Of a stretch of 5,178 nt of DNA, positions 1-5,178 are shown in pieces. Under the pieces are notes generated by a model. That model was not told where the DNA came from. It made no database searches and saw nothing but the letters and a program-made list of their open reading frames with translations. Source of the DNA: Rhodospirillaceae bacterium (lineage in GTDB: Bacteria > Pseudomonadota > Alphaproteobacteria > Rhodospirillales > Magnetovibrionaceae); the NCBI GenBank assembly GCA_002401565.1, contig NVTL01000029.1, positions 20,109-25,286 of the forward strand. Reading direction: 5' to 3'. A program made the translations under genes and the position numbers. Within the stretch, counting starts at the first letter, position 1, and each line of letters begins with the position of its first letter.

Positions 1-170
1 GCACAGCCCATGATCAGGTCTTCGATGTCTTTGGGGTTAACGCTGGTGTGGTCAATCAATCCTTTGACCACTTGCGCGGCAATCTCATCGGGGCGGGTGT
101 GCGCCAAGCCGCCTTTGGTGGCAAAGGTGAACGGAGACCGCACATATCCGGCAATGACAATGGACTTCAT
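1..170 (-). CDS. Thiolase (acetyl-CoA acetyltransferase / 3-ketoacyl-CoA thiolase), N-terminal part, cut by window edge
   Basis: The first 56 residues of a thiolase-family enzyme are present; the gene continues beyond position 1. The translation opens MKSIVIAGYVRSPFTFATKG and continues with RPDEIAAQVV, then DIEDLIMGC. This is the usual thiolase N-terminus: a beta strand, an R-(S/T)-P-F/G segment, an R-P-(D/E) helix start and a D-I-(E/D)-D-(L/V)-I-x-G-C strand. Thiolases cleave 3-ketoacyl-CoA with CoA in beta-oxidation or condense two acetyl-CoA. The catalytic Cys (near residue 90) and the C-terminal His and Cys lie outside the window, so chain-length preference and direction cannot be judged. 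The ATG overlaps the ligase stop codon as ATGA (167-170), and an AAAGGAG site 8 bases upstream supports this start. The position after an acyl-CoA ligase favours a degradative (FadA-like) role, but this is inference. Confidence 0.88.
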   Translation of the reverse strand, partial: MKSIVIAGYVRSPFTFATKGGLAHTRPDEIAAQVVKGLIDHTSVNPKDIEDLIMGC

Positions 171-1798
171 GATGCTAACTCCTTTATGAGATCTTTTTTG
201 GATAATTTTCCGACTAATGTTTTGGGCAGGCTGTCGCGAATTTCAACGGCCACCGGGCGTTCGATCCGGTTTAGATCTTCATTTGCAAAATCGAGCAGGG
301 TTTGATTGGTTGCAAACGATCCGGATCTGACCGTGACATAAGCCATGGGCGCTTCGCCTCGGTAATCATCAGGCACGCCAATGACGATGACTTCCAAAAC
401 GTCTTCGTGACGGTACAGCGCATTTTCGATGACTTGCGGATAGACTTTAAAGCCCGAGCAAATGATGATGTCTTTGATGCGGTCGGTGAGGAAAAAATAG
501 CCGTCTTCATCTTGATAACCAACGTCCCCGGTGCTCAGCCATCCGTCTTGTAAGACCTTGTCTGTTTCGGCTTTTTGGTTCAAGTATCCGGACATGACTT
601 GAGGCCCCCGGACCACCAATTCCCCCACCTCACCTTGAGCGGCGACCTGTTCAAAGTTTTCCAGATTTCGACATTCAATATCCGTCCACGGCAACGCAAG
701 GCCGATGGACCCGATTTTGTTTTCGCTGTGCGGTGGGTTGCAGGTGACCACGGGCGAGGCTTCGGATAAACCGTAACCTTCGACCAAAATGCAATGGCTT
801 AAACGTTCAAATTCAATTTTCACTTTGCCGGGCAAGGGGGCACCGCCGCTGATGCAATAGCGGATCGATGTTAAGTCAAAATGATCAAAATCTTTTGCCG
901 TGTTGATGGCTCCGTAAATGGTCGGTACGGCGGGAAAAATCGTGGGCTTTTTGTGTGTGATGGTCTCCAACACTTCGCCCAAATCAAAACGCGGCAATAA
1001 AATCAGTTCCGATCCGGTGGCGAGGCCCAAATTCATGCCAGCCGTCATGGCAAATACATGGAAAAAAGGAATCACACAAAGGAATTTGTCTTCCCCTGCC
1101 TTGGTCCGGCCCAGCCATAGACGCACTTGTTCTGCATTGGCGCGAATGTTGGCGTGGGTCAACATGGCGCCTTTGGGGGTGCCGGTCGTGCCGCCCGTAT
1201 ATTGAATAACCGCGATGTCTTTTTCAGGCGTAATGGTGACGGGTTTGGGCGCGTCTTTGTCGGCGATCAATAAACGGAACGGAATGTGGCCTAAATCCTT
1301 TGGCACGTTTGCGACCTCGGCCCGTTTGAAAATTTGAAACAATAAACTTTTTATCGGGGGCAGGGCTTCGCTTAACGCACATACCACAATTGTTCTTAAG
1401 GTTGTCGTGTGAAGGGCCGGAGCGACTTTTTTATAGACGCTTTTTAAATCCAACGTGAACATCAAAACAATGGAGCTGTCTTCGATTTGTTCGCGAATTT
1501 CACGTTCTGTATACAGCGGATTAAAATTAACAACGGTGGCGCCAATCAAAAGCGTGGCGTAATGGGCAATCACATAATAAGGGCTGTTGGGCAAACACAA
1601 ACCAATCCGGTCATCCTTTTGAAGGCCTAAATCCTGAAGCCCACGGGCGGCTTCGCGGACTTGTGCCCAGACTTCGCCATAGGTCATTTTCTGGCCTAGA
1701 AAATCCAAACAGTCTAAATCCGGATGAGCCTCGGCCCCTTGGCTGAGAATGCGCGTGGCGGGGCCTGTTGGAATGTTGGCGGTAGGATGCGTATTCAT
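167..1798 (-). CDS. fadD: Long-chain fatty-acid--CoA ligase (AMP-forming)
   Basis: This 543-residue enzyme of the ANL adenylate-forming superfamily activates a free fatty acid with ATP to acyl-AMP and then acyl-CoA, in the cytoplasm or at the inner membrane face. The core motifs are all present in order: P-loop YTGGTTGTPKGAMLTH at 200-215; aromatic/His segment PFFHVFA at 244-250; GGAPLP at 318-323; YGLSEASPV at 342-350; STGD with the ribose-binding Asp at 425; hinge segment DRIKDIIICSGFKVYP at 439-454; and a C-terminal PKTLVGKLSKKDL at 525-537 whose Lys531 is the expected adenylation lysine. The length is close to that of bacterial FadD (about 560). No signal peptide or membrane helix is visible. 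The start overlaps the stop of the upstream fusion gene as ATGA, with GAGGAGG 10 bases upstream. The medium versus long-chain preference cannot be read from sequence, so the symbol rests on family resemblance. Confidence 0.93.
   Translation of the reverse strand: MNTHPTANIPTGPATRILSQGAEAHPDLDCLDFLGQKMTYGEVWAQVREAARGLQDLGLQKDDRIGLCLPNSPYYVIAHYATLLIGATVVNFNPLYTEREIREQIEDSSIVLMFTLDLKSVYKKVAPALHTTTLRTIVVCALSEALPPIKSLLFQIFKRAEVANVPKDLGHIPFRLLIADKDAPKPVTITPEKDIAVIQYTGGTTGTPKGAMLTHANIRANAEQVRLWLGRTKAGEDKFLCVIPFFHVFAMTAGMNLGLATGSELILLPRFDLGEVLETITHKKPTIFPAVPTIYGAINTAKDFDHFDLTSIRYCISGGAPLPGKVKIEFERLSHCILVEGYGLSEASPVVTCNPPHSENKIGSIGLALPWTDIECRNLENFEQVAAQGEVGELVVRGPQVMSGYLNQKAETDKVLQDGWLSTGDVGYQDEDGYFFLTDRIKDIIICSGFKVYPQVIENALYRHEDVLEVIVIGVPDDYRGEAPMAYVTVRSGSFATNQTLLDFANEDLNRIERPVAVEIRDSLPKTLVGKLSKKDLIKELAS
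179..185 (-). promoter_or_regulatory. Shine-Dalgarno site for the thiolase, inside the ligase gene
   Basis: AAAGGAG on the minus strand, 8 bases before the thiolase ATG. It is embedded in the last codons of the ligase (Lys-Glu of the C-terminal KELAS). Together with the ATGA stop/start overlap it indicates coupled translation. Confidence 0.75.
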
Positions 1799-4092
1799 GC
1801 TGATTTCGCCTCCTCTTTTTCTGTGACGTGGGTGATGAATTTATCCAACACGTCCCAGCTGTTAGAGCCTTGGTCTGTGACGATGCCGTGTTGGTCGCTG
1901 GCGATCCATTTCAACTGACAATCGGTGGCGAGTTTTCCGTATATGGATTGCACACTGTCCGGATGCACCACCGGGTCTTTGTCGGCTTGGATCAACAACA
2001 CCGGGACTTGGACTTCGGGCAAACGCCGCTGCATTTCATCAATCATGATGCGCAATTCGTTTAAGGCCTGAATGGGCATGGCGCGATAATTGATGTCGGG
2101 ATGTTCACTGTCGTTATCGCGAAACGGAACAACGTCATCGACCAACGGCAACCAACTGGCCATTTTGTTTAAGCCTTGCAACAACGGCACAAAGGCAATT
2201 TTGGCGTCTTGAAATTTTATAGGCGCGTTTATGCTGGCAATTCCAGCCAGATTGTCGGGCCATTCAGAAGCGTGGATTAACGCCAAGACGCCCCCTGATG
2301 AAAAGCCCATGACCACCACCTGATCACAATGGGCGGCCAAAATACGGTAACACCGTTCAATGGATTTTAACCATTCGGGCCATGTGCGTTCATGCAAATC
2401 CCAAGGCGATGTGCCGTGCCCGGCCAAGCGCACACCCAAAACCGCATAACCATCATCTTTTAGTTTGTGGGCATAATGGGTCCATTCCGATGGAGAGGCC
2501 AAAAGCCCGTGCACCAACAATACGCCAACCGAGCTTTTTTGTTTGGGCAATAATAAATAAGGCGCGCCGCTTTGCGTTGCGGTTTCTTGGTCGTTCACAT
2601 CGGCATGTTTGACTTTGTGGAAATGCTGGCGGTTCCAGTCATGGGCGCGGATTTCATCATCAAATAAAAGCTCGGCAAGATCTAATTCTGAAAGGGTATG
2701 GGCTTCTTCTAAGGCTTCATTCATGATGGATTTTACGGCGGGGATCGGGGCCACTTCGTTGGCATAAATTAAAATGGGATTGCTGATCCGCACTTCGTCA
2801 AAATGAAACTCTTCATAAAGCGGTGGCAGAAAATGATAACCCTGATCCGTCAGTTCAATCAGGCCCGCCGATTTTATGGTGGTTAGGAACCTGTCCAATT
2901 CGGTGCAGTGACCTTCGATTAATCCACGATACCGATCCGGCCAATACAGGCTTCTGTGCAGGGCCACTTCTTTTTGCTTTTGAAGCTTTTTCAGGGCCAG
3001 ATATAAAGTGTAATGAAAGGTCTTTAAGTCAATTGATGACTTTCCAGCTTTGACCATGCACAAAATTAAAGACGAGGCCAGGTGGCTGAGATTGACCGTG
3101 ATGCCTGTGTACAGTGCTTTCATAGACAGATCGCGAATGCGTTTGGTTTCTTTTGAAATACATTTGATCAGCATGCGTTCGGTCCAGTCTTCGCCGCGTT
3201 CGCCGCGCAGGTTAAACAGGTCGTCCAAAGACCGGACTTTTTTGAAATACCGTTCCAGCAACATGCGTTCCCACCACGGCCATTTTTTATGGGTGTACAA
3301 CGCTTCGCCCAAACGAATGTCCATGTCGGTGTCTTTCAGCAATATATTGCCTTCGATCACCAGTTCTTCCATGAATTGACGGCTGAGGCCCTTGGTCCAA
3401 GATTCCGCCGTACGGCTGAACGCATTTTCGTCGATGTGCAACGGGTAAAAGGTAATGGTTCCGGGCACGACAGCGGTGGGCTTTGACGCGGCTTTGATCA
3501 GGGCGGCTACGGAGGGCATTTTTAACGTACGGGCCCAGCGGTCCAAACGGGCCAGATCGTCTCGCTGGTGCAGGCTGAGAATGCGGCGTTTGAAAATGTC
3601 CAAAGTCAGGGCCAGTACGCTGGCGCCTTTGTGGTGTTTGCGGCGTTCTTCGGCGGTGCGGGAATAGATGTTGTATTCGCCTTGGTCGTCTAACACTTGG
3701 CGGTCTTTGACCATGCCGCCTTCGGGAAAGATAACGACCTTGCGGCCCTTTAAAATCTCACCCGCTAAAAACGGCAACAATCCCGGCATGGTATTGGGTA
3801 CGGCCCCCACCTTACGCAAAAAAGAACTGACCCGGTGGTTGCCTGCGAACAATTCATGATCGGCAACGGATCGGCAATAGGCTCCGGTGGCTTGATGAAT
3901 GATATAAGGCGGAATAATGGTTTCAAAACGGGCAAAATGATTGAACAGGAAGATGTCGCCCTGTTGGGTAAGGCCTTCGTCGTGATGAACTTTGACGTTT
4001 ACGCCCAATGTTTTGCGCAGGGTATGAAAAGACCGGACACACCAATTGTATGTGTCTTCGTTCAGATCAAAATCGGAATCCATGTGCGTCAT
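1795..4092 (-). CDS. Fusion protein: glycerolipid-type acyltransferase (PlsC/PlsB-like) joined to an alpha/beta hydrolase (lipase/esterase-like)
   Basis: One uninterrupted 765-residue frame carries two enzymes. The N-terminal acyltransferase (about 20-260) has a motif I FNHFARFET with His52 but Glu57 where HX4D is usual, a motif II-like stretch ELFAGNHRVSSFLRKVGAV at 80-98, motif III VVIFPEGGM at 119-127, and a motif IV-like VVPGTITFYPL at 208-218. The middle (about 270-510) is mostly helical in appearance; phrases such as TVNLSHLASSLIL and YANEVAPI recall the C-terminal part of PlsB-type acyltransferases, but this is a weak resemblance. The C-terminal alpha/beta hydrolase (about 520-755) has oxyanion segment LLVHGLLASP (525-534), nucleophile elbow GFSSGG with Ser598, probable Asp706 in QADKDPVVHP and His735 in SDQHGIVTD, the pattern of carboxylesterases and monoacylglycerol lipases. 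No signal peptide or clear membrane helix is seen, so it probably acts as a cytoplasmic or peripheral membrane protein. AAAAGG 10 bases before the ATG supports this start. The true acyl donor, acceptor and ester substrate are unknown. Confidence 0.9.
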   Translation of the reverse strand: MTHMDSDFDLNEDTYNWCVRSFHTLRKTLGVNVKVHHDEGLTQQGDIFLFNHFARFETIIPPYIIHQATGAYCRSVADHELFAGNHRVSSFLRKVGAVPNTMPGLLPFLAGEILKGRKVVIFPEGGMVKDRQVLDDQGEYNIYSRTAEERRKHHKGASVLALTLDIFKRRILSLHQRDDLARLDRWARTLKMPSVAALIKAASKPTAVVPGTITFYPLHIDENAFSRTAESWTKGLSRQFMEELVIEGNILLKDTDMDIRLGEALYTHKKWPWWERMLLERYFKKVRSLDDLFNLRGERGEDWTERMLIKCISKETKRIRDLSMKALYTGITVNLSHLASSLILCMVKAGKSSIDLKTFHYTLYLALKKLQKQKEVALHRSLYWPDRYRGLIEGHCTELDRFLTTIKSAGLIELTDQGYHFLPPLYEEFHFDEVRISNPILIYANEVAPIPAVKSIMNEALEEAHTLSELDLAELLFDDEIRAHDWNRQHFHKVKHADVNDQETATQSGAPYLLLPKQKSSVGVLLVHGLLASPSEWTHYAHKLKDDGYAVLGVRLAGHGTSPWDLHERTWPEWLKSIERCYRILAAHCDQVVVMGFSSGGVLALIHASEWPDNLAGIASINAPIKFQDAKIAFVPLLQGLNKMASWLPLVDDVVPFRDNDSEHPDINYRAMPIQALNELRIMIDEMQRRLPEVQVPVLLIQADKDPVVHPDSVQSIYGKLATDCQLKWIASDQHGIVTDQGSNSWDVLDKFITHVTEKEEAKSA
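1809..1815 (-). promoter_or_regulatory. Shine-Dalgarno site for the acyl-CoA ligase, inside the fusion gene
   Basis: GAGGAGG on the minus strand, a near-perfect anti-16S match, 10 bases before the ligase ATG at 1798. It lies in the codons for the acidic C-terminal tail (KEEAKSA) of the acyltransferase-hydrolase. It fixes the ligase start and, with the ATGA overlap, supports translational coupling or strong independent initiation. Confidence 0.78.
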
Positions 4093-4102
4093 ATTGTAGG
4101 AA

Positions 4103-4108
4103 CCTTTT
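4103..4108 (-). promoter_or_regulatory. Shine-Dalgarno site for the acyltransferase-hydrolase fusion
   Basis: AAAAGG on the minus strand, 10 bases before the ATG at 4092. The in-frame ATG at 4083 would be 19 bases away, so 4092 is the better start. The site is weaker than those of the two downstream genes. Confidence 0.5.
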
Positions 4109-4131
4109 CAGGCTTTCCCCCCTACACATGG

Positions 4132-4162
4132 TATATAGTAACTCATATGGAGTTTACTTCAA
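4132..4162 (-). promoter_or_regulatory. Weak candidate promoter for the lipid operon
   Basis: Reading the minus strand, TTGAAG (4162-4157) is followed after 16 bases by TACTAT (4140-4135), or after 19 bases by TATATA (4137-4132). These are partial matches to sigma-70 -35 and -10 boxes, placed 40-70 bases before the fusion-gene ATG. The small dyad at 4138-4157 lies between and over these boxes, the expected place for a repressor site. This is a guess from consensus; the operon could instead be read from the cytochrome promoter. Confidence 0.28.
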
Positions 4163-4190
4163 AATGATTACACAAATAAACTTATGAGTT
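4140..4190. repeat. Imperfect inverted repeat between the cytochrome and the lipid operon
   Basis: The left arm (4140-4156) reads AACTCATA, then TGG, then AGTTTA; the right arm (4177-4190) is TAAACTTATGAGTT. These form 14 complementary pairs with a 3-base bulge (4148-4150) around a 20-base loop (4157-4176). The right arm includes the cytochrome stop codon. The left arm is also a small dyad by itself (GTAACTC, 5-base spacer ATATG, GAGTTTAC; 4138-4157). In the minus-strand transcript it would give a hairpin at the end of the cytochrome message, but it is AT-rich and has no following U-run, so it is not a canonical terminator. It may instead be an operator or an mRNA-stabilising or attenuating hairpin. 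Confidence 0.5.
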
Positions 4191-4661
4191 GGGGCGGCGA
4201 TCAATCACTTTAGAGCTGTTTTTGACGTTATGACACGCGGTACAGTTCGACAAGCTGACCGCTTTTTTCATCGCTTTGGAGCTAATTTTGCGGGCACTGT
4301 GTTCGCGCACAAACCATTTTTTGGTGGAAATGCGCTGACCAATTTTGCGGGGGCGACTGCCGTTGTACACTAGGTATTCTTCGATTTGTAACCGGGTGGG
4401 CTCGTTCAGGCTGATATCTTCGCCAAAATGATTGCTTAAATTACCCATGATTTTCTGCCAAGCATAAGCCCGCAAATACCGTGGAGAATAGGCTGGATGG
4501 CAATCACTGCATTCCTGAACGGTCAAAGCATCGGTCGCCAATGAAATCGCACCGGAAGCCTGTGCATTATCCAATTGCAAAAGCGTGGGTGTGATATATA
4601 AAGCCCCGGCAACAAGACCAAGGCGGCTGAGAGCTTTAAGACGAGACGGACGTGCGTTCAT
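4182..4661 (-). CDS. Exported dihaem cytochrome c, DHC family
   Basis: This is a small periplasmic electron-transfer protein. Counting from the first possible ATG (4667, 161 residues), a signal peptide covers about residues 3-37, with basic residues, the hydrophobic run LGLVAGALYITPTLL and a probable cut after AQA. Two haem c sites follow: CSDCH (53-57) and CTACH (142-146). Between them come AYSPRYL, W70, NHFGED with His80, an IEEYL helix and a KKWFVREH segment with His123; His80 and His123 are plausible distal ligands. This order of motifs matches the DHC family first known from Rhodobacter sphaeroides, where DHC pairs with the haem protein SHP; no SHP gene is visible here. The ATG at 4661 is preferred over 4667 because GAAAG (4671-4675) lies 9 bases before it but only 3 before the upstream ATG. 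The region around residues 105-135 is very rich in Lys and Arg. The gene points the same way as the lipid operon, 89 bases upstream of it. Confidence 0.88.
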   Translation of the reverse strand: MNARPSRLKALSRLGLVAGALYITPTLLQLDNAQASGAISLATDALTVQECSDCHPAYSPRYLRAYAWQKIMGNLSNHFGEDISLNEPTRLQIEEYLVYNGSRPRKIGQRISTKKWFVREHSARKISSKAMKKAVSLSNCTACHNVKNSSKVIDRRPNS

Positions 4662-4670
4662 GATCATGGT

Positions 4671-4675
4671 CTTTC
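4671..4675 (-). promoter_or_regulatory. Weak Shine-Dalgarno site that decides the cytochrome start
   Basis: GAAAG on the minus strand lies 3 bases from the first ATG (4667) and 9 bases from the second (4661). Normal spacing favours the second. The match is short, so the choice is tentative; the signal peptide is intact either way. Confidence 0.4.
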
Positions 4676-4711
4676 GGTCAAATTAGACTAAACTGGATTA
4701 GTTTTTATAGC

Positions 4712-4716
4712 GGGAG
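4712..4716 (+). promoter_or_regulatory. Shine-Dalgarno site for ggt
   Basis: GGGAG on the plus strand, 6 bases before the ATG at 4723. It is at the right distance for this start, and the signal peptide begins immediately at this ATG. Confidence 0.65.
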
Positions 4717-4722
4717 ACGAAG

Positions 4723-5178
4723 ATGCGCAAGGGTTTACACCAATTAGCTGGGCTGGCTTTCACGGCTTTGGTGCTGCTTTCAGGCCCTGTGCAGGCTCAA
4801 GACCGCACGCCAGAGATGGCGACCGGGCTGATAAAATCTAAAAATGTCACGGGCCAAAAATTCATGGTGGCGGTGGCAAATCCTTTGGCTTCACAGGCCG
4901 GATACGAAGTTTTGTTGCAAGGTGGCAGCGCCGTGGACGCGATGGTTGCCGCGCAAATGATGTTGGGGTTGGTTGAACCGCAAAGCAGTGGTTTGGGTGG
5001 CGGAGCCTTTTTGGTGTATCACGATGCCCGAAAAAATGCGGTTACAACATTTGACGGGCGCGAAACGGCGCCTGAATTGGCGACGCCCGATTTGTTCTTA
5101 AATGCCGACGGTACGCCGCTGAAATTTTATGACGCTGTTGTTGGTGGCCGGTCCGTTGGCACGCCGGGCACGTTAAAA
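4723..5178 (+). CDS. ggt: Gamma-glutamyltranspeptidase (gamma-glutamyltransferase), N-terminal part, cut by window edge
   Basis: The first 152 residues of a periplasmic Ntn-hydrolase that removes or transfers the gamma-glutamyl group of glutathione and related compounds. A signal peptide MRKGLHQLAG...GPVQA covers residues 1-25, with probable cleavage before QDRTP. Family signatures follow: MVAVANPLASQAG (48-60), LLQGGSAVDAMVAAQ (64-78), LGLVEPQSSGLGGGAF (81-96), DGRETAP (111-117) and GGRSVGTPG (141-149). Arg113 in DGRETAP corresponds to the arginine that binds the glutamyl carboxylate in the E. coli enzyme (FREMAP). The frame is open to the window end. The Thr nucleophile at the self-cleavage site of the precursor lies beyond it, so intactness of the enzyme cannot be confirmed. 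The start is supported by GGGAG (4712-4716), 6 bases before the ATG. The gene diverges from the cytochrome gene. A role in glutathione salvage or in supplying cysteine or glutamate is the usual expectation. Confidence 0.93.
   Translation, partial: MRKGLHQLAGLAFTALVLLSGPVQAQDRTPEMATGLIKSKNVTGQKFMVAVANPLASQAGYEVLLQGGSAVDAMVAAQMMLGLVEPQSSGLGGGAFLVYHDARKNAVTTFDGRETAPELATPDLFLNADGTPLKFYDAVVGGRSVGTPGTLK

Follow-up and report, generated by a model that had tools for sequence, protein, structure and literature searches.

The window analysed here, a 5,178-nucleotide stretch of a Rhodospirillaceae genome (contig NVTL01000029.1), encodes on its minus strand a protein of 765 amino acids (aa), in which an acyltransferase half is joined to an alpha/beta-hydrolase half. 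The frame is uninterrupted by any frameshift, as an earlier sequence-only reading of the same DNA had claimed, and comprises the following features.

1795..4092, minus strand: acyltransferase and alpha/beta-hydrolase fusion, 765 aa, supported by the open reading frame (ORF), homologues and models; directly before β-oxidation genes
3388..4092, minus strand: acyltransferase core, residues 1-235; PF01553 at 33-161, GPAT1/PlsC-like fold
3922..3942, minus strand: motif I, N51-H52-X4-E57; H52 and E57 in 287/287 relatives
3715..3729, minus strand: motif III, FPEGG, residues 122-126; E124 and G125 in 287/287, G126 in 275/287
2578..3387, minus strand: residues 236-505, comprising the last part of the acyltransferase fold and a domain that is helical and winged-helix-like; the alignment of the model with human GPAT1 extends to residue 462
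3319..3330, minus strand: conserved motif T255-D-M-D258; D256 and D258 in 287/287
1822..2538, minus strand: monoacylglycerol-lipase-like alpha/beta-hydrolase domain, residues 519-757 (Pfam and models)
2299..2301, minus strand: nucleophile Ser598 in GFSSGG; Ser in 275, Ala in 9, Gly in 3 of 287
1975..1977, minus strand: triad Asp706; Asp in 286, Glu in 1 of 287
1888..1890, minus strand: triad His735; 287/287

The Pfam family Hydrolase_4 covers residues 524-741 with an E-value of 8e-23, over the cut-off. At E<=0.01 it is matched by all 59 rows of an alignment that includes the window, and PF01553 by 54 of these rows. In the window the PF01553 match is borderline, with 22.5 bits in the protein scan, just below the 23-bit cut-off, and 26.5 bits, above it, when the same frame was met in the genome search, while residues 1-505 match no NCBIfam family at E<=0.1. 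In AlphaFold models residues 486-761 resemble bacterial monoacylglycerol lipases and residues 1-462 human GPAT1. The motifs lie exactly where the sequence-only reading had placed them (N51-H52...E57, F122-P-E-G-G126, S598 in GFSSGG, D706 and H735), and both catalytic sites are intact: a GXSXG serine with D706 and H735 characterizes the alpha/beta-hydrolase fold, and the HX4D/E and FPEG motifs, together with the Pfam match, characterize the PF01553 acyltransferases, HX4D/E being described as the hallmark of the acyltransferase superfamily in PMC6148475. The internal ATG at 2724-2722 corresponds to residue 457, within the helical domain.

The two sites differ in their conservation. We compared 287 distinct relatives, collected from two lists of at most 120 matches each, one of them seeded by a serine-less Kiloniella sequence, and from 80 genomic loci. 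H52, E57, E124, G125, K129, D256 and D258 are invariant, as is H735, M127 is kept in 278 and G126 in 275. Of the triad, H735 is present throughout, D706 in all relatives but one and Ser598 in 275; in the other 12 the serine is replaced, by Ala in nine and by Gly in three, which is not an unbiased rate of loss because part of the set came from the Kiloniella-seeded search (among the best 80 of 348 loci the serine is missing from five). The serine-less motifs read GFATGG, GFASGG or GFGTGG and retain Asp and His (L063, L093, L101, L102, L106, P0118 and P0240-P0246). They belong to the seven sequences nearest Kiloniella laminariae (P0240-P0246, including Dongshaea marina), L102, L106, two Novispirillum rows and P0118; L101 is a duplicate row within the Kiloniella group, also without the serine, and other Kiloniellaceae bins (L042, L088 and L108) retain it. 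No second full-length copy was found in the five serine-less genomes searched, a weak result for L106, whose genome comprises only 1.5 Mb. Since the acyltransferase residues never vary and the serine is lost in 12 relatives, the predicted acyltransferase is the fixed part of the family and the predicted lipase is sometimes disarmed; hydrolysis of the Ser598 type appears dispensable in some lineages, and acyl transfer seemingly not.

Such a pattern could also be produced by a mainly acyl-CoA-dependent acyltransferase, whose hydrolase serves as an editing or protective domain against mis-acylated product or excess acyl-CoA and can decay to a scaffold. In addition to the unequal conservation of the two sites, the ratio of hydrolase to acyltransferase identity is in keeping with such decay in L101, L102 and L106 of the Kiloniella group, where it is among the lowest (0.80, 0.84 and 0.77; ranks 0, 4 and 0 against 76 serine-bearing rows, with a mean of 0.95). 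However, the ratio is ordinary in the serine-less Novispirillum rows (0.93-0.94) and low in the window (0.84, rank 4 of 76) despite its intact triad, and retention of the serine in 275 relatives would be needless for a mere scaffold. We regard this explanation as unlikely, though worth keeping in mind.

The fusion is widespread. The first protein search scored 7996 candidates, of which 1842 were relatives at E<=1e-3; among the matches listed, 119 of 120 cover 97-100% of the 765-aa query, and 22 of 120 are proteins of 1308-1337 aa that additionally carry the ligase domains PF00501 and PF13193. A genome scan found 348 relatives, of which the best 80 were taken as loci, and in all 80 no stop interrupts the frame in either half, the L050 protein lacking its N-terminus because the contig ends there. 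The domain order, for which the sequence-only reading had proposed to search, thus recurs across proteobacteria and is no isolated or mis-assembled join. An artefact of assembly or frameshift joining two genes, in favour of which nothing was found, is refuted by the full-span relatives and by the stop-free frames, which include those of the isolates Novispirillum itersonii and Sedimenticola selenatireducens; we consider it virtually impossible. Shorter relatives are also at odds with it, as they end at scattered places, as fragments would. In a search with a 400-aa acyltransferase query, which limits matches to shorter proteins, 182 were found, and the ends of the 119 new ones among the 120 listed are scattered over window residues 200-765, with the largest bin at 250-299 and no peak at 505. 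Because of this scatter they look like fragments, and among the matches listed no separate stand-alone acyltransferase family was found.

Named holders of the fusion include Novispirillum itersonii, Kiloniella laminariae, Terasakiella pusilla and Sedimenticola species; it also occurs in bins that bear the names Acidobacteria, Nitrospinota and Klebsiella pneumoniae, labels that may be wrong. The fusion of the metagenome-assembled genome labelled Klebsiella pneumoniae (L109) groups with that of a gammaproteobacterial bin (L107), and this label is probably wrong. Among other relatives of the window's genome the fusion is present in 17 of 59, in one of them (G017) split over two frames. At the class level, where the acyltransferase half alone was used as the query and the hydrolase motif was checked in two of the matches, 16 of 384 other genomes matched strongly, in frames of 749-1409 aa, and one weakly. 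At the phylum level, with at most two candidates scored per genome, a near-full-length match was found in 4 of 397 others, the most distant being L127, which is 31% identical and retains NHFTRME, YPEG and GFSAGA. No relative was found on viral contigs, in a one-protein pattern scan sensitive to close relatives only, or on plasmids (tblastn, E<=1e-20).

Downstream of the fusion the window contains two further genes on the same strand.

167..1798, minus strand: FadD-type long-chain acyl-CoA ligase, 543 aa, the next gene after the fusion
1..170, minus strand: start of a thiolase gene (FadA type, 379 aa; L002:7031-8170), TIGR01930

The stop of the fusion and the start of the ligase overlap by four bases (1795-1798), as do the ligase stop and the thiolase start. 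Beyond the window, on the same strand, the thiolase is followed by a FadB-type gene (L002:4749-7100), encoding a 3-hydroxyacyl-CoA dehydrogenase/enoyl-CoA hydratase, and by a FadE-type gene (L002:2450-4738), encoding a long acyl-CoA dehydrogenase. The ligase and thiolase neighbours had been correctly recognized in the sequence-only reading, which lacked these last two; the fusion gene directly precedes a complete β-oxidation set, in the order of fadD, fadA, fadB and fadE types, on one strand. The overlaps and the gene order suggest that all these genes may be co-transcribed. In the FadB-type protein (minus strand) the dehydrogenase domain is N-terminal and the hydratase domain comes last, and its best match is NF052272 (Staph_FadB).

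The link to the ligase is strong in the relatives as well. Our context set comprised 81 loci (the best 80 of 348 and the window), a sampling that tilts the counts toward window-like loci; 77 were informative and four were short of downstream DNA. The ligase is adjacent in 25 of the 77, and in 10 it is fused in frame into one protein of about 1300 aa, which makes 35 loci with an adjacent or fused ligase; in the remaining 42 none was found. Genes for FadA and/or FadB lie downstream in 37 of the 77 and in none of the other 40, and where the downstream DNA extends for at least 7.5 kb (49 loci), FadA, FadB and FadE are all present in 25, whereas L040 and L042 have β-oxidation genes and no ligase. 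With the window not counted, the operon occurs in 27 of 34 loci of Alphaproteobacteria, 1 of 25 of Gammaproteobacteria, 0 of 3 of Betaproteobacteria, 1 of 1 of Magnetococcia, 0 of 1 of Polarisedimenticolia and 7 of 12 with unnamed class. The suggestion that the fusion might always stand beside a ligase and a thiolase hence fails outside the Alphaproteobacteria, 24 of the 25 gammaproteobacterial loci being without the operon. A quick tree, many of whose forks are weak, requires at least five changes of the operon state and at least four of the ligase-fused state; on account of the latter, repeated joining of the ligase to the fusion, or separation from it, appears likely. In two Methylococcaceae bins a more distant ligase, 34-35% identical, adjoins the fusion gene, and the gene found upstream of it in Sedimenticola selenatireducens (L066) is of the acetyl-CoA-synthetase type.

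The gene context, together with the clear lipase fold, could be taken to indicate that the protein acts as a lipase in β-oxidation, with an acyltransferase half serving merely as a membrane- or acyl-binding module. This is quite improbable, however, as the catalytic acyltransferase residues are present in all 287 relatives and are more constant than the lipase serine. A two-site transacylase, proposed in the sequence-only reading, would take the acyl group on the hydrolase serine as an acyl-enzyme and hand it through the other half to a second lipid, with no free fatty acid or CoA. Both sites do share one chain, and certain proteins of the alpha/beta-hydrolase fold carry acyltransferase annotations (24 of the 59 rows have a weak match to the NCBIfam model OlsI, with a best E-value of 3.5e-6), yet the serine-less clades persist, and the adjacency and fusion of the ligase indicate an acyl-CoA donor. 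As a general rule the transacylase is not supported, the serine being lost in a set where the acyltransferase residues are invariant, and overall we find it highly improbable. The deacylation-reacylation cycle suggested in the same reading could operate in relatives that retain the serine; a cycle always needing both sites is not the general job of the family, because serine-less clades keep the gene, and it is not closed within the operon, because the FadB and FadE types offer acyl-CoA a degradative exit.

Among known systems, the closest to the hydrolase half are the monoacylglycerol lipases of bacteria (Bacillus sp. H257, 3rm3/4ke7; Geobacillus, 5xks) and LipS (4fbl), chains of about 250 residues, whereas here the lipase domain follows an acyltransferase in the same chain and in 12 of the 287 relatives lacks the serine. 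The model of the N-terminal half shares the overall fold of GPAT1/PlsB, including its C-terminal part, but motif I is HX4E in all fusion relatives instead of HX4D, and motif III in the window is PEGG-M instead of PEGT-R; from the PlsC/LPLAT superfamily (PF01553) the fusion differs by an extra C-terminal domain (about 330-505) and by the HX4E variant. PMC4280512 describes the requirement for HX4D and PEGT-R in the GPAT motifs and a D-to-E change in motif I of human AGPAT1 that abolished activity. The PlsB model has no match anywhere in the window's genome (G000). When a wide acyltransferase alignment was compared by hhalign with 20 PlsB sequences the E-value was 0.09, and the positive control, PlsB against Aas, was likewise missed (0.07); against the Aas-like protein of the window's own genome the E-value was 1.9e-4, with a probability of 47% and the right register. 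Another PEGG-bearing group is formed by PlsB-like frames from Alphaproteobacteria (L172-L175; about 450-520 aa), which have HRSNMD and F/YPEGG and stay under the PlsB cut-off.

The nearest working analogue, judged by likeness of domains, is Aas, a single chain that combines an acyltransferase with an AMP-forming ligase, as is also the case in the fusion relatives of about 1300 aa. In E. coli, lysophospholipase L2 (PldB), a hydrolase of similar kind, and Aas together deacylate and re-acylate lysophospholipids; they are encoded by separate genes, as opposed to the single chain here. LplT and Aas fused in a single ORF are on record in PMC11416262. Compared with LplT-Aas, the fusion has a lipase-like domain in between, a FadD-type ligase and β-oxidation neighbours; a Pfam scan found no transporter family in the window's protein, and residues 33-161 already match the acyltransferase. 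The window's genome also contains a 1147-aa frame with PF01553, which we take to be LplT-Aas from its size and acyltransferase match only.

That genome (3.03 Mb, 113 contigs, 86% complete) has one full copy of the fusion gene, PF01553 at three places only, and no match to PlsX or PlsY, a gap that is probably due to incompleteness. A 99%-complete genome of the same genus (G001) likewise shows no PlsY. These absences had raised the idea that the fusion supplies the first acylation step in place of PlsX/PlsY. As a replacement for PlsY it was ruled out, because PlsY coexists with it in 15 of 17 other fusion-bearing relatives, the two without PlsY being only 65-66% complete. PF01553 has one or more additional matches, in frames of 240-416 aa, in each of the eight fusion-bearing relatives tested (along with four others), and two of the eight (G009 and G011) have another PF01553 frame of about 1145 aa.

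Upstream of the fusion, at a distance of 89 bases, lies a gene for a dihaem cytochrome c of 161 aa (PF09626; window 4182-4667, minus strand) with no clear tie to it, followed by the divergent start of a gamma-glutamyltransferase gene (window 4723-5178, plus strand). In L002 (12723-14460) the latter consists of two ORFs, 12723-13298 and 13282-14460, which overlap in different frames, perhaps owing to a frameshift or an assembly error. A scan of positions 4000-4800 gave one promoter-like site (1.0 expected) and three terminator-like ones (0.8 expected), two of them overlapping; an alignment of four upstream stretches, two apparently from one genome, yielded no usable operator, and Rfam gave no match at the gathering threshold.

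We tentatively favour, at a little under an even chance, a conserved two-site protein that salvages acyl chains at the point where β-oxidation and re-esterification diverge. The lipase-like half, in the window and in most relatives, is predicted to release fatty acids from monoacylglycerol or lysolipids, and FadD, encoded by the next gene or fused C-terminally in some relatives, would convert the freed or imported fatty acid to acyl-CoA. This could then be oxidized by FadE, FadB and FadA, or alternatively be transferred by the GPAT-fold acyltransferase half to a glycerolipid acceptor; because acyl-CoA is either oxidized or re-esterified, the fusion would stand where breakdown and lipid re-synthesis part. 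Acyl transfer would be the obligatory activity and hydrolysis an accessory one, lost in some lineages.

Several observations weigh against such a role: 12 of 287 relatives are without the catalytic serine; the tie to β-oxidation could be secondary, as 40 of 77 loci, 24 of them gammaproteobacterial, are without the operon; the same-strand cytochrome gene upstream may mean that the fusion is not the first gene of its transcript; and the motifs are HX4E and PEGG-M, where the D-to-E change inactivated human AGPAT1 (PMC4280512). Nothing follows from the missing hhalign link to PlsB, the positive control having been missed too, and the activity, substrates and chemistry are all predicted. The more specific idea of a lipid-fate enzyme, with a line of deacylation, activation and reacylation in one polypeptide (the ligase being fused in some lineages) standing at the entry to β-oxidation and based on an HX4E/PEGG/TDMD acyltransferase subfamily, is possible but doubtful.

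In the literature searched, which left most subscription journals outside its scope, no paper on this acyltransferase-lipase fusion or its biochemistry was found; the parts are known folds, and the arrangement, the HX4E/PEGG/TDMD subfamily (with its borderline Pfam and absent NCBIfam matches) and the recurrent tie to FadD appear undescribed there. In the sources searched, most names given to the relatives refer only to the hydrolase or lipase ('alpha/beta fold hydrolase' or 'esterase/lipase'), with some JGI names covering both domains, yet it is the acyltransferase half that is invariant. The serine-less lineages offer a natural experiment for separating the two activities, and if the acyl-salvage role is true, many proteobacteria would have an extra acyl-CoA-using route of lipid acylation, wired to fatty-acid breakdown, beside PlsY and the PlsC-type enzymes.
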